Assembly: GCA_002238765.1 (NCBI GenBank)
Contig: MPMZ01000017.1
Coordinates: 1-48,057, forward strand
Origin: Nitrospira sp. bin75
Lineage (GTDB): Bacteria; Nitrospirota; Nitrospiria; Nitrospirales; UBA8639
Length of the DNA stretch: 48,057 bases
Direction: 5' to 3'
The position numbers and the translations under genes were made by a program. Below the pieces are notes generated by a model. The model was not told the DNA's origin and did no database searches. It saw nothing but the letters and a program-made list of their open reading frames with translations. How positions within the stretch are numbered: the stretch's first letter is position 1; every line of letters starts with the position of its first letter. Of the stretch, positions 39,582 to 44,315 are shown in pieces.

Positions 39582-40742
39582 ATGTTGCGTTATTTAAATG
39601 CCGGTGAATCCCATGGAAAGGGATTGATGGCCGTGTTGGAAGGGGTCCCGGCAGGGCTTCCCCTGAGCGCGGAAACGATCAATCAGGATCTGGCGAGAAG
39701 GCAGGGTGGATATGGCCGTGGGGGGCGAATGCGAATCGAAAAAGATCAGGTCGAGTTTTACTGCGGCGTCCGAAAAGGAAAAACCTTGGGAAATCCGTTG
39801 GGCTTATTGGTTCGCAATCGAGATTGGGAAAATTGGCAGGAGATTATGGCGGCTGAACCGGGGCCTCCTTCTGAAGAACGAGTCGTGACCCGTCCGCGAC
39901 CCGGTCATGCCGACTTGGTGGGGGCCATTAAATATGGACATCGGGACATTCGCAACGTGCTCGAAAAGGCGAGCGCGAGAGAAACGGCGATCCGGGTGGC
40001 GCTTGGTAGCGTGGCCAAGGTCCTCTTGTCGCAATTTGATATGCGGGTGGTGAGTTATACGACCCGAATCGGCTCGGTCGCGATCCCGCAGGTGGATGAT
40101 CCCTTGGCGGCGTATGAACTGGCTGAGCAGTCTCAGGTCCGGTGTCCTGATCCGGAAGCAAATGAAAAGATGATCGAGCAGATCCAAACGGCGAAACGGA
40201 ACGGCGATTCCTTGGGTGGAATCTTCGAGGTGGTGGTGACCAATCCTCCCATTGGGTTGGGCAGTTACGCGCAGTGGGACCGGCGTTTGAGCGCACGGTT
40301 GGCCATGGCGGCCCTGAGTATCCAGGCCATGAAAGGCGTGGAAATCGGTATGGGGTTCGAGTCGGCTCGTCGCTTTGGCTCCGAAGTGCATGACGACATT
40401 TATCCCAGTGACGTGAAACCGGGCTTTGCACGACAGACCAACCATGCCGGTGGGTTGGAAGGCGGCATGACGAACGGCCAACCCGTGGTCGTGCGGGTTG
40501 CCATGAAACCGATTGCCACGTTGTATCAACCGAAAAACAGCGTCGATATCCAAACGAAAGAACCATTTGAAGCCACGGTGGAACGTTCGGATATCTGTAC
40601 GGTTCCTGCAGCCGGCGTGGTAGGAGAAGCCGTCATTGCCTATGAGATGGCCAATGCCATGTTGGAAAAGTTCGGCGGCGATAGTTTGGATGAAATGAAA
40701 CGGAATTTCGACGCCTACCAGGAATACGTGAAGAATTTCTGA
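39582..40742 (+). CDS. aroC: Chorismate synthase
   Basis: This FMN-dependent enzyme makes chorismate from EPSP, the last step of the shikimate pathway. The 386-residue protein shows AGESHGKGLMA (about 7-17), RRQGGYGRGGRMRIE (about 35-49) and GHADLVGAIKYGHRDIRNVL, all signatures of the family. The C-terminal GGMTNGQPVVVRVAMKPI segment is intact. It begins 25 bases after pilP and is followed after 72 bases by aroB. Confidence 0.98.
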   Translation: MLRYLNAGESHGKGLMAVLEGVPAGLPLSAETINQDLARRQGGYGRGGRMRIEKDQVEFYCGVRKGKTLGNPLGLLVRNRDWENWQEIMAAEPGPPSEERVVTRPRPGHADLVGAIKYGHRDIRNVLEKASARETAIRVALGSVAKVLLSQFDMRVVSYTTRIGSVAIPQVDDPLAAYELAEQSQVRCPDPEANEKMIEQIQTAKRNGDSLGGIFEVVVTNPPIGLGSYAQWDRRLSARLAMAALSIQAMKGVEIGMGFESARRFGSEVHDDIYPSDVKPGFARQTNHAGGLEGGMTNGQPVVVRVAMKPIATLYQPKNSVDIQTKEPFEATVERSDICTVPAAGVVGEAVIAYEMANAMLEKFGGDSLDEMKRNFDAYQEYVKNF

Positions 40743-40814
40743 GTGGGTTTTCTTCCTCAACCAACGTGAATCCATGGCAGGGCTCAACCGGAAAAGCCGA
40801 GCGCGGGGTTGCTC

Positions 40815-41906
40815 ATGACCCTCTCTGACAAAACCGTCACGGTCGGCCTCGGCAAGCGAAGCTACGATATCGTCATCGGTCCCGGCACCCTTCACCGTAT
40901 GGGTGAGTATTTACAGTCATTGGGCCTGTCCGGAAGAGTCGGGGTCGTGACCAATCCGGCGTTGGCGCGGCTCTACGGGGCATCGCTCAAGAAGGCGATA
41001 GTGAAAGCCGGATTCACCTGCCACGTCATGAGTATTCCGGAAGGTGAGCGAACCAAAACGCTTCGGTGGGTCTCGTACATCGTCGATGAATTGGTCAAGC
41101 ATCGATTCGAACGCCGGTCCACGCTCGTGGCGTTGGGTGGAGGAGTGATTGGAGACCTCACCGGTTTTGCCGCGTCAATGTACCTTCGGGGTATTCCCTT
41201 TGTGCAGGTCTCCACCACGCTTGTGGCACAGGTGGATTCCAGCGTGGGGGGGAAAACCGGGGTCAACCATTCCTCCGGGAAGAATTTGATCGGTGCGTTT
41301 TACCAGCCGGCCCTCGTGGTGTCCGATACGAATACGTTGCAGACCCTTCCGAAGCGGGAATGGATAGCCGGTTTGGCCGAAGTGATTAAATATGGAGTCA
41401 TTGCCGACAAGACGTTTTTCGCGTTTTTGGAAAACCGGATGGACCACATTCTCGACATGCAGGAAAAGGACATCCAAACGGTCGTCACGCGTTGTTGTGA
41501 GATCAAGGCGCGGGTGGTCGCCAAAGATGAACGGGAATCGGGTCTGCGTCGGATCTTGAATTATGGACATACGATCGGGCACGCGTTGGAGGCCTTGGGC
41601 CGGTACCGACACTATATCCATGGCGAAGCGGTGGGAATCGGTATGGTGTATGAATCCCTCCTTGCCAGTCATTTGGAGTTGTGCTCGAAAGACGTCGTGC
41701 ACCGGCAGCGTGTCTTGATACAGCAGACGGGCCTTCCCGTGCGGATGCCGGCGCATAGTTTTTCGAGATTCTGGGAAGCCATGCGTCATGATAAAAAAGT
41801 GGTGCATGGCGCCGTCCATTGCGTGCTTCCCAGGTCGATAGGAAAAGTGCAGGTCATGCCGCTGGACCCGCGCACGGTGAGACGGTGGTATGCACAATTG
41901 AGTTGA
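40815..41906 (+). CDS. aroB: 3-dehydroquinate synthase
   Basis: AroB converts DAHP to 3-dehydroquinate, the second step of the shikimate pathway, using NAD and a metal. From the ATG at 40815 it has 363 residues. Visible motifs are the NAD-binding GGGVIGDLTGFAAS, the substrate loop GGKTGVNHSSGKNLIGAF, and metal ligands in the LAEVIKYG, NYGHTIGHALE and IHGEAVGIGM segments. A TTG two codons upstream is a less likely start. Pairing with aroC is a small shikimate cluster. Confidence 0.98.
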   Translation: MTLSDKTVTVGLGKRSYDIVIGPGTLHRMGEYLQSLGLSGRVGVVTNPALARLYGASLKKAIVKAGFTCHVMSIPEGERTKTLRWVSYIVDELVKHRFERRSTLVALGGGVIGDLTGFAASMYLRGIPFVQVSTTLVAQVDSSVGGKTGVNHSSGKNLIGAFYQPALVVSDTNTLQTLPKREWIAGLAEVIKYGVIADKTFFAFLENRMDHILDMQEKDIQTVVTRCCEIKARVVAKDERESGLRRILNYGHTIGHALEALGRYRHYIHGEAVGIGMVYESLLASHLELCSKDVVHRQRVLIQQTGLPVRMPAHSFSRFWEAMRHDKKVVHGAVHCVLPRSIGKVQVMPLDPRTVRRWYAQLS

Positions 41907-41969: not shown

Positions 41970-43229
41970 ATGACGCCGACAAAGAAATCACCCAAGCGGC
42001 CCCAGCCGGACGTCAAGGCCGTCCTTCGCGAAAGAACGCGTGAAGTGGAAGTGCTGTATCGTATCAGTGAATCGATCAGCAGCACGCTCGATTTGGAAGC
42101 GGTTCTCAAACACATCGTGGAAATGGTTGTCGAAGTGACGAAGGCCGATTCCTGCTTGTTGTATCTCGTCTCCGAGAATCGGGACGAACTTGTTTTGCGA
42201 TCATCCAAGAATCCTCATCCCAAGCTCATCGGCCGAATCTCCGTGGGATTGGGAGAGGGGATTACGGGCTGGGTGGCGCAAGAAATGGTGCCGGTGGTCA
42301 TTCCTCGTCACGCGAGTGATGATCCACGGTTTAAATTCTTTCACAATCTTCCCGAAGACCGATACCAGGCGTTTGTGTCGCTTCCTATCGTGACCAAAGG
42401 CAGCGTCATCGGAGTCATTAACGTTCAACACAAGCGGGCGAGGCGATATCAGGATGCCGAACTGGCGCTGTTATCGACGATCGCGAACCAGGTTGGGGGC
42501 GCCATCGAGAACGCGCGATTGTATGACGAAATGAGGCGGCAAACGTTACAACTGGATACCTTGTCCCAGGTTTCGGAAACCGTGGCGTCCAATCGCGTGA
42601 TCGAGGAAGTACTCCAATTGATCGTGATGACGACGGCGCAGATGATGGATTCGACGATCTGTTCCCTGATGTTGGTTGATGAGGAGAACCAGAAATTGCA
42701 TATTGCGGCGACCCAGAGCCTGAGCGAAGCCTATCGCCGGAAACCTCCGCTCAAGATCGGCCAGAGTATCAGTGGGCTGGTGGTCAAGGAACAACGGCCG
42801 ATTTACGTTTCGGACGTGAAGAAGGAAAAAGAGTTTTTCTACCAGGATTTAGCCAAACGGGAGTCGTTGTGTTCGTTATTGTCGGTGCCCATGATGAGCA
42901 AGGAACGGGTCATTGGCGTGCTCAATACCTATACCTCCACGTTGCATGCGTTTGACGACAAGGAGATCAAAATTATGCAAGCCATTGCCAACCAGGCAGC
43001 GGTCGCCATTGAGCATACTCGTCTCATGGAAAAATCATTTGAAATGCAGGAAGCCCTGACCGTCAGAAAACTCGTCGAACGAGCCAAGGGGTATCTCATG
43101 CATTCTCGTAAATTGTCGGAAGCCGACGCGTTCAGGTTGATCCAGCGTCAAAGCATGAACATGCGAAAGTCCATGCGGGAGATAGCCGAGGCCATTATTC
43201 TGGCTGGAGAATTGGAAGGCGGGGATTAG
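41970..43229 (+). CDS. GAF-GAF-ANTAR regulatory protein
   Basis: The 419-residue cytoplasmic protein has two GAF sensor domains, about residues 38-186 and 205-352. A C-terminal ANTAR domain spans about 361-415 (VRKLVERAKGYLMHSRKLSE, ending in three short helices). ANTAR domains bind paired RNA hairpins and prevent transcription termination, as in AmiR, NasR and EutV. GAF domains often sense small molecules, nitric oxide or redox. The ligand and target RNA are unknown here. The ATG at 41970 is chosen because upstream in-frame codons lie inside a dispersed repeat. No sensor kinase is adjacent. Confidence 0.85.
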   Translation: MTPTKKSPKRPQPDVKAVLRERTREVEVLYRISESISSTLDLEAVLKHIVEMVVEVTKADSCLLYLVSENRDELVLRSSKNPHPKLIGRISVGLGEGITGWVAQEMVPVVIPRHASDDPRFKFFHNLPEDRYQAFVSLPIVTKGSVIGVINVQHKRARRYQDAELALLSTIANQVGGAIENARLYDEMRRQTLQLDTLSQVSETVASNRVIEEVLQLIVMTTAQMMDSTICSLMLVDEENQKLHIAATQSLSEAYRRKPPLKIGQSISGLVVKEQRPIYVSDVKKEKEFFYQDLAKRESLCSLLSVPMMSKERVIGVLNTYTSTLHAFDDKEIKIMQAIANQAAVAIEHTRLMEKSFEMQEALTVRKLVERAKGYLMHSRKLSEADAFRLIQRQSMNMRKSMREIAEAIILAGELEGGD

Positions 43230-43269: not shown

Positions 43270-44235
43270 TCATCCTCGACCCCCCTTGTTGTACTGTCCC
43301 GTGTGATTCTGGAGGAGTTGCAAGGGCGTCTGATAGTTGAGGCACTTTAACCGCGTCCGATTATAATTGTCCACGAACCGCGTGAGAAACGCGTTCCGCT
43401 CGGCGTGGGTCCGAAACCGATTACGGCAATGGGGCCGAAGCGGTGGCTGACTCTGGAAGGCCTCGCTCAACCGCCGGTTAAAGCGTTCGACCATCCCATT
43501 CGTCTGCGGATGATAGGGCCGGATCAGCCGATGCTTGATCCCATGCGCCTGGCACACCCGGTCCAGGCGATGCGTCCCGCTCGGCTGCCCCGCGGGGTTG
43601 CCTTTTTTGTGCACCGCAAACCGATCAGTCAATGCGCCATCGTTATCGGTCAAGATGGTGTGCACTTTCTGGGGAAACGCGGCCAGACATTCTTCCACGG
43701 CCTGCGTCACCATGGCGGCGGTCCGCCGGGCCAGCACCTTGATCCAGACATAGCGGGTGGCGCGGTCAATCGCTACGAACACATAGCTGGGCTGCTTGGG
43801 TAATTTACTTAACACTTTCAGATCCAGATGAATGTAGCCGCAAGGGGTTGCCGCGAACCGCTCCACCGGCGGCGCGTCGGGGGCGACGGGGGGCAACCGG
43901 GCCACGCCCAGCCGGACGAAGCAGCGATGGATGGCGCTGCGACTCAAGCGGGGCGTGCTGCAGCGGTTCATGACTTCCGTGACATCGTCGAGGGACAACC
44001 GCAACTGGGGGCGCAATTCGGCGATGAGGGCTTCCGGCTCGGGGGAGGTGCGGGCATGGAGCTGGTGCCGAACATGAGAGCCGTCATGGCCCCGACCGGC
44101 CCGCTTCCATTTATAGACGGTGGTGACGGCCACCCCGAGTTCGCGGGCCAAGGCCGCGGCGCTTTTGGGGGCGGTCTGGATGTAGCGCCGGGTGGCGGGG
44201 GTGGTGCGAGCTAACTTATGCCATTTGATGTCCAT
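43270..44235 (-). CDS. IS481-family transposase
   Basis: The 321-residue protein has an N-terminal helix-turn-helix (ALARELGVAVTTVYKWKRAG, about 28-47) and an RVE-type catalytic core. The DDE residues are placed at D138 (YIHLDLKVLSK), D197 (TILTDNDG) and E250 (YHPQTNGMVERFNRRL), so it appears intact. The ATG at 44235 has AGGAG five bases before it on the minus strand. The last codons, for KGGRG and the stop, lie beyond the left inverted repeat in host DNA, so the coding region depends on the insertion site for its stop. Confidence 0.93.
   Translation of the reverse strand: MDIKWHKLARTTPATRRYIQTAPKSAAALARELGVAVTTVYKWKRAGRGHDGSHVRHQLHARTSPEPEALIAELRPQLRLSLDDVTEVMNRCSTPRLSRSAIHRCFVRLGVARLPPVAPDAPPVERFAATPCGYIHLDLKVLSKLPKQPSYVFVAIDRATRYVWIKVLARRTAAMVTQAVEECLAAFPQKVHTILTDNDGALTDRFAVHKKGNPAGQPSGTHRLDRVCQAHGIKHRLIRPYHPQTNGMVERFNRRLSEAFQSQPPLRPHCRNRFRTHAERNAFLTRFVDNYNRTRLKCLNYQTPLQLLQNHTGQYNKGGRG
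43286..43304. repeat. IS481 terminal inverted repeat, transposase 3' end side
   Basis: TTGTTGTACTGTCCCGTGT matches the complement of 44297-44315 perfectly over 19 bases. It also encodes, on the minus strand, part of the transposase C-terminus (HTGQYNK). Confidence 0.88.
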
Positions 44236-44296: not shown

Positions 44297-44315
44297 ACAC
44301 GGGACAGTACAACAA
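44297..44315. repeat. IS481 terminal inverted repeat, transposase 5' end side
   Basis: ACACGGGACAGTACAACAA is the exact reverse complement of the repeat at 43286-43304. The transposase start codon lies 62 bases inside this end. Confidence 0.88.

Follow-up and report, generated by a model that had tools for sequence, protein, structure and literature searches.

A GAF-GAF-ANTAR protein as a putative antiterminator of nitrogen-acquisition operons in the Nitrospirales

Our analysis indicates that a GAF-GAF-ANTAR protein of Nitrospira sp. bin75 is very probably a one-component transcription antiterminator that serves its lineage as the regulator of nitrogen acquisition, acting through paired hairpins in RNA leaders. 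Nitrospira and its relatives drive nitrite oxidation and comammox, and the role of general nitrogen-status regulator is filled elsewhere by NtrBC. In their available portions, two genomic or transcriptomic papers name no regulator for switching between ammonium, urea, cyanate and nitrite. The protein and its RNA targets, resolved base by base, would offer a candidate and testable answer to how nitrogen uptake is controlled in Nitrospira-type bacteria. The initial annotation had proposed ANTAR antitermination of nitrogen genes via paired hairpins with six-base loops, and at the level of sequence this proposal is supported by the leaders, the targets, and the co-occurrence of protein and leader, all of which were computed along with the domains and fold.

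The gene lies on contig MPMZ01000017.1, which was analyzed over positions 1 to 48,057 (the window). The features of the window that bear on the argument are the following.

39582..40742, plus strand: aroC (chorismate synthase), conserved upstream neighbor, named by eye
40809..41906, plus strand: aroB (3-dehydroquinate synthase), conserved upstream neighbor, named by eye
41970..43229, plus strand: GAF-GAF-ANTAR gene, 419 aa, from stop-free translation, Pfam and orthologues
42090..42506, plus strand: first GAF domain, residues 41-179; Pfam GAF, 140.7 bits
42600..43013, plus strand: second GAF domain, residues 211-348; Pfam GAF_2, 155.1 bits
42957..43226, plus strand: long helix continuing into the ANTAR three-helix domain, residues 330-419; AlphaFold2 and Foldseek
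43044..43199, plus strand: ANTAR RNA-binding domain, residues 359-410; PF03861
43286..44315, minus strand: insertion sequence with 19-bp inverted ends (43286-43304 and 44297-44315); transposase named by eye

The GAF domains and the ANTAR domain are fused in one 419-aa chain, in which PF03861 scores 68 bits, above its curated cut-off of 27.3. A Pfam scan of this chain found neither a receiver domain nor a nitrate-sensing NIT domain, and the matches to GAF, GAF_2, and PF03861 confirm the receiver-less GAF-GAF-ANTAR architecture that had first been read from the DNA. It is the sole ANTAR match in its own 3.04-Mb genome. AlphaFold2 modeled the whole protein as two GAF domains joined by a helix and followed by a three-helix ANTAR end (mean pLDDT 79). 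Because tandem GAF proteins dominated the fold search with the whole protein, the ANTAR part was folded alone. Its last 90 residues formed helices H2-51, H55-69, and H73-88 with a mean pLDDT of 94.4, and the best 11 Foldseek matches in the PDB were all chains of the known ANTAR proteins Rv1626, EutV, NasR, AmiR, and PAL. The C terminus thus has the expected three-helix ANTAR fold, set on a coiled-coil helix. EutV of Enterococcus faecalis superposes on it with a VIA-align Z of 10.3 and an rmsd of 2.5 over 84 residues and shares most RNA-contact residues. The RNA-touching residues of EutV, as given in PMC8934654, align with R366, K367, R371, K373, E384, F388, Q392, M396, N397, R399, and S401, and eight of these 11 positions (R366, K367, R371, K373, E384, M396, N397, and R399) are identical or conservative; EutV Y164, R168, and R177 are replaced by F, Q, and S.

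What might the GAF pair sense? The first GAF domain is nearest to NifA/PtsP-type GAF domains, with the NifA profile spanning residues 25-192 and PDB matches to 3e0y, 3ci6, and 3trc, and the second matches the PtsP profile over residues 196-368. As described in the relevant parts of PMC8219145 and PMC4848567, the GAF domain of NifA binds 2-oxoglutarate and that of PtsP binds glutamine. Our best guess is that the signal is nitrogen status, in the form of glutamine or 2-oxoglutarate. A rather unlikely alternative is that the antiterminator and its targets are as we describe them, but the GAF pair senses redox state, oxygen, NO, or another small molecule. GAF domains accept a wide range of ligands; across 35 orthologues (the window protein aligned with 34 of the 63 fetched loci), C62 never varies and C231 hardly does; and the fold search with the whole protein returned tandem GAF cyclic-nucleotide proteins as its best matches, with DevS/DosS GAF structures also present. 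However, all assigned targets are nitrogen genes and the nearest profiles are those of NifA and PtsP; the fold rankings were given no weight against any GAF ligand class. It is also unlikely that the signal is read outside the GAF domains, with PII/GlnK or another protein gating the antiterminator. Both glnK and glnD fall within the regulon, and PII gates other nitrogen regulators such as NifL-NifA (described in part of PMC8219145), but GAF domains can sense directly.

The initial annotation considered the gene an orphan and monocistronic, a view that its surroundings contradict. In the window, aroB lies 63 nt upstream on the same strand, and synteny with aroCB and nadE-glnD is conserved: among relatives, 36 of 41 loci have aroB directly upstream of the ANTAR gene, and in 30 of 39 nadE lies no more than 1.5 kb downstream. 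The typical order is pilMNOP-aroC-aroB-[GAF-GAF-ANTAR]-leader-nadE-glnD, and some relatives have amtB-glnK between nadE and glnD (the names aroB, aroC, pilMNOP, orn, and transposase were assigned by eye). The exceptions fall into two sets. In L019, L024, and L028, which include N. moscoviensis, genes for urea transport or urease follow the ANTAR gene; in the six distant loci L040-L045 it is followed by an oligoribonuclease-like gene. In the window, an insertion sequence occupies the position of the leader and nadE in relatives, and nadE-glnD with its leader is found on contig C44 of the same genome. An insertion and a rearrangement have separated the ANTAR gene from nadE, and the window itself holds no leader, the sole site near the ANTAR gene having been replaced by the insertion sequence.

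The combination of domains had also been called uncommon, but 160 of 235 Nitrospirales genomes carry an ANTAR gene, nearly always in one copy. Apart from single exceptions, the close ones among the 63 fetched loci bear the name Nitrospira, Nitrospirales, or Nitrospirota. Identity to the window protein is 56-98% in the 34 other loci, L002 being the nearest at 98%. Family f21, in another class of the phylum, has ANTAR domains in open frames of ~420 aa (for example in G309, G317, and G319) and no matches to the leader model; these genes perhaps encode GAF-GAF-ANTAR proteins with diverged targets.

The leader before nadE is conserved in Nitrospirales and consists of a sigma-70-like promoter, two hairpins (P1 and P2), a terminator, and a U-tract. 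Both hairpins have six-base loops in which position 1 is A or G and position 4 is G, as in GAC-AACGAC-GTC (P1) and GGAC-AATGGC-GTCC (P2), and the 3' arm of P2 (GTCC) doubles as the 5' arm of the terminator. The leader sequences, terminator covariation, and folding all point to this overlap of P2 with an intrinsic terminator, which is typical of the ANTAR family. A long U-tract, a hallmark of the intrinsic terminator, closes almost every element. Five pairs of the terminator stem are altered on both sides, a level reached by none of 500 shuffles, and the covariation score over 134 matches is 0.546 versus 0.199 when shuffled. Covariation in P2 was rejected as proof of that hairpin since its stem is nearly invariant (two compensatory cells). 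When the five leaders of the bin75 genome were folded, the structure of lowest energy contained the terminator (z from -2.5 to -5.3), as expected of the unbound state. The arrangement of P1, P2, and terminator is that of known ANTAR antiterminator leaders, those of NasR and EutV, as far as PMC3369931 and PMC8934654 describe them, and antitermination is therefore the most likely mechanism.

P1 was not part of the search model. Even so, a P1 hairpin (score of at least 4, no more than 75 nt upstream) accompanies 81 of 102 elements, compared with 9.3% of shuffles. Its loop positions 1 and 4 are A/G in 68 cases and G/G in 17, with 1-8 for each of the 14 other combinations, and G at position 1 is in the minority. 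A P2 hexaloop with G at position 4 is present in 98 of the 102 elements. Within the bin75 genome, four of the five leaders have P1 and four have the P2 hexaloop. Promoters scoring at least 9/12 precede 74 of 86 leaders versus 11.5% of shuffles (single-base shuffles, as for P1). No P1 can be recognized before nadE in the genus of the window (L098 plus seven relatives, inspected by eye) or in leaders from distant orders of the class, and three leaders of sigma-54 activator genes (L136 at 2033-2085, L201, and L214) have a seven-base P2 loop, AATGAAC or AACGAAC. In L032-L037, P1 shares sequence with a separate terminator-like hairpin, and the nadE leader there seems to hold two serial terminators. 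In two nadE leaders from distant orders (L226 and L227), a strong hairpin lies upstream, but its loop does not fit the ANTAR type. No plasmid copies of the nadE leader were found.

In 22 nadE leaders, the ATG lies 0-4 nt past the U-tract and an AGAGG-like sequence lies within the 3' arm of the terminator, so translation may be controlled too. An extreme form of this idea is that control is mainly translational, with the hairpin hiding the ribosome-binding sequence, ANTAR binding freeing it, and termination being secondary. We consider this form distinctly improbable, since a long U-tract ends nearly all elements and many targets other than nadE begin 50-200 nt beyond the element. Antitermination, with translation as a possible addition at nadE, remains the preferred mechanism.

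The search model, R1, describes P2 plus terminator and was built on 34 sequences that are mainly nadE leaders, so the finding of other operons was not built in. It returned four strong sites and one weak site in the bin75 genome, and the gene families of the targets were confirmed.

nadE-glnD, contig C44: R1 56.6 bits
porin-amtB-glnK-amtB: R1 43.8 bits
sigma-54 activator gene: R1 42.9 bits
urea porin-urtA and further urt genes: R1 40.9 bits
nitrate-type ABC transporter and cyanase: R1 weak, 20.8 bits, E 0.29

The weak site has a P1 hairpin, GAC-AAAGAA-GTC, and a P2 hairpin with another stem, TGGC-AATGAC-GCCA.

R1 matched in 25 of 29 chosen genomes; of the four match-less genomes, three belong to genus g29 and lack ANTAR, and the fourth is from family f4. 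From 99 listed matches, 97 were used after two antisense echoes were dropped. Across the relatives and the bin75 genome, 74 of 86 places were assigned to nitrogen genes: nadE (19), amt-glnK (16), urea (15), nitrate/cyanate-type transporter (14), nirC-nirA (5), sigma-54 regulator (4), and glnD (1). The other 12 are other or unassigned, and because open reading frames were called by length, antisense frames hide genes at some of them. A scan for dual hexaloop hairpins before nitrogen genes, which had been suggested from the window alone, is therefore strongly positive. In five places glnA comes next after the amt genes, and a tandem pair of elements occurs in 16 of the 81 places of relatives. 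More distant orders of the class have elements before a sigma-54 activator gene (five genomes) or nadE (three genomes), the nadE elements having the stem AAGAC/GTCTT or one close to it. N. moscoviensis has elements at nadE and the cyanate-type operons, and R1 found none at its urea (urt) genes. With nitrite as the only nitrogen source, this organism transcribes the nitrogen region strongly and the urea genes moderately, according to the pertinent part of PMC6606698. Transcription under this one growth condition is consistent with the distribution of elements, which falls short of proof.

If the leaders are the targets of the protein, the two should be found in the same genomes. The leader is present in 161 of 231 Nitrospirales genomes, and for these 231, both gene and leader occur in 154, the ANTAR gene alone in 6, and the leader alone in 7. 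The ANTAR scan covered 235 genomes and the RNA model 231, so up to four of the six ANTAR-only genomes perhaps fall outside the RNA-model set, which did include G142 and G144; the 64 genomes counted as having neither in the statistics are 231 minus 167. Retention and loss of the protein go hand in hand with those of the leader throughout the order and also within genus g29, where 13 of 79 genomes have both, one has the ANTAR gene only, two have the leader only, and most lack both. Most genomes of this genus (G061-G139) have apparently lost the whole system. Six ANTAR-less genomes keep nadE, and the 200 nt upstream of it show no P2-like hairpin or T-run in the five informative reads, the sixth (L236) falling inside the gene. 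The ANTAR-less members of g29 are natural knock-outs for comparison. Single departures include G142 and G144, in which the protein is present and the leader is below threshold, and G079 (99% complete), which has the leader and no ANTAR. Elsewhere in the class, in its other orders, 10 genomes have ANTAR genes and 5 have leaders, with an overlap of 4, and it is likely that a model trained on Nitrospirales loses sites there. In a sample of 295 genomes from across the phylum, R1 had no matches outside the class although many genomes there have other ANTARs, and chance matching was rejected.

Might the hairpins instead be simple attenuators, or a riboswitch that answers to some other factor, with the protein acting elsewhere? 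Although the binding of protein to leader is something we infer, we regard this as very improbable: the loop bases of both hairpins fit the ANTAR rule, the leader is gained and lost along with the ANTAR gene, and the leaders match nothing in Rfam (across seven stretches that include target operons, tRNAs were the sole hits, with no riboswitch or other known RNA family).

We therefore return to antitermination by the GAF-GAF-ANTAR protein, for which the direction of regulation and the signal, as set out here, are what we infer. Each target transcript would start at a sigma-70-type promoter and carry P1 and then P2 near its 5' end. By default, the intrinsic terminator would form and end transcription before the first gene. 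The GAF pair would be switched by nitrogen shortage, probably read as low glutamine or high 2-oxoglutarate, and the ANTAR domains of the switched dimer would hold P1 and P2 so that the terminator cannot form. RNA polymerase would then read on into nadE-glnD, amtB-glnK, urt, the nitrate/cyanate-type transporter with cynS, nirC-nirA, and the sigma-54 activator gene. In the family of the window, the ribosome-binding sequence of nadE lies within the terminator arm as well, and freeing it may raise translation. A tie between NadE and PII, reported in part of PMC7196632, may explain why nadE belongs to a nitrogen regulon. In its most complete form, to which we give slightly less than even chances, the protein would be an order-wide nitrogen-status regulator whose GAF domains read glutamine or 2-oxoglutarate directly, which controls the acquisition and use of ammonium, urea, cyanate, and nitrite as well as NAD synthesis and PII modification by antitermination (with translation in addition at nadE), which feeds a sigma-54 cascade, and which was lost at once in most of g29.

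How does this system compare with known ones? According to the available portions of PMC3369931 and PMC7496416, NasR of Klebsiella oxytoca is likewise a one-component sensor-ANTAR antiterminator of nitrogen assimilation, and its nasF leader likewise has paired six-base-loop hairpins before a terminator. NasR differs in its nitrate-sensing NIT input and its single operon beside the nas genes, whereas the Nitrospira protein has tandem GAF domains and many operons and is not beside nas. EutV shares the overlap of P2 with the terminator but is switched by phosphorylation of a receiver, which the Nitrospira protein lacks. PAL of Nakamurella multipartita (PAS-ANTAR-LOV), another one-component sensor-ANTAR protein, senses light, in contrast to a protein with GAF domains. 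NifA and PtsP (EI-Ntr) provide the nearest profiles for the GAF input part, but their outputs are sigma-54 activation or phosphotransfer rather than an RNA-binding ANTAR domain.

Other bacteria are known to place nitrogen regulons under the control of ANTAR proteins, and the ANTAR targets listed in the accessible part of PMC3369931 include PII and ammonium and urea transporters. The same source predicts an ANTAR nitrogen regulon in Desulfotomaculum acetoxidans that also has many leaders before nitrogen genes (13 sites, six units). That organism belongs to another phylum, and the portion of the source at hand names no GAF-GAF regulator, nadE, or cyanase for it. In the available text, PMC3369931 (2012) states that no GAF-ANTAR protein had yet been characterized, and PMC7496416 (2020) gives PAL and NasR as the only characterized one-component ANTAR proteins. 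The literature accessible to our searches yielded no GAF-ANTAR protein with known targets, although Table S2 of PMC3369931 may list a Nitrospirae site, and what it offered on the ANTAR domain together with Nitrospira-like names concerned another system only. As far as these searches show, the protein would be the first GAF-GAF-ANTAR with a mapped regulon and, if our reading is true, the first GAF-ANTAR protein of any kind with a defined one.

Two kinds of places lie apart from the known nitrogen genes. In L204 (351-403; genome G201), an element precedes a gene for a beta-propeller-type protein without an evident nitrogen role. A lipoprotein-like gene of ~300 aa without a Pfam match stands behind elements in L166 (550-1464; genome G046), L162, L177, and L194, three of these four loci having tandem elements, and it is possibly a new member of the nitrogen regulon.
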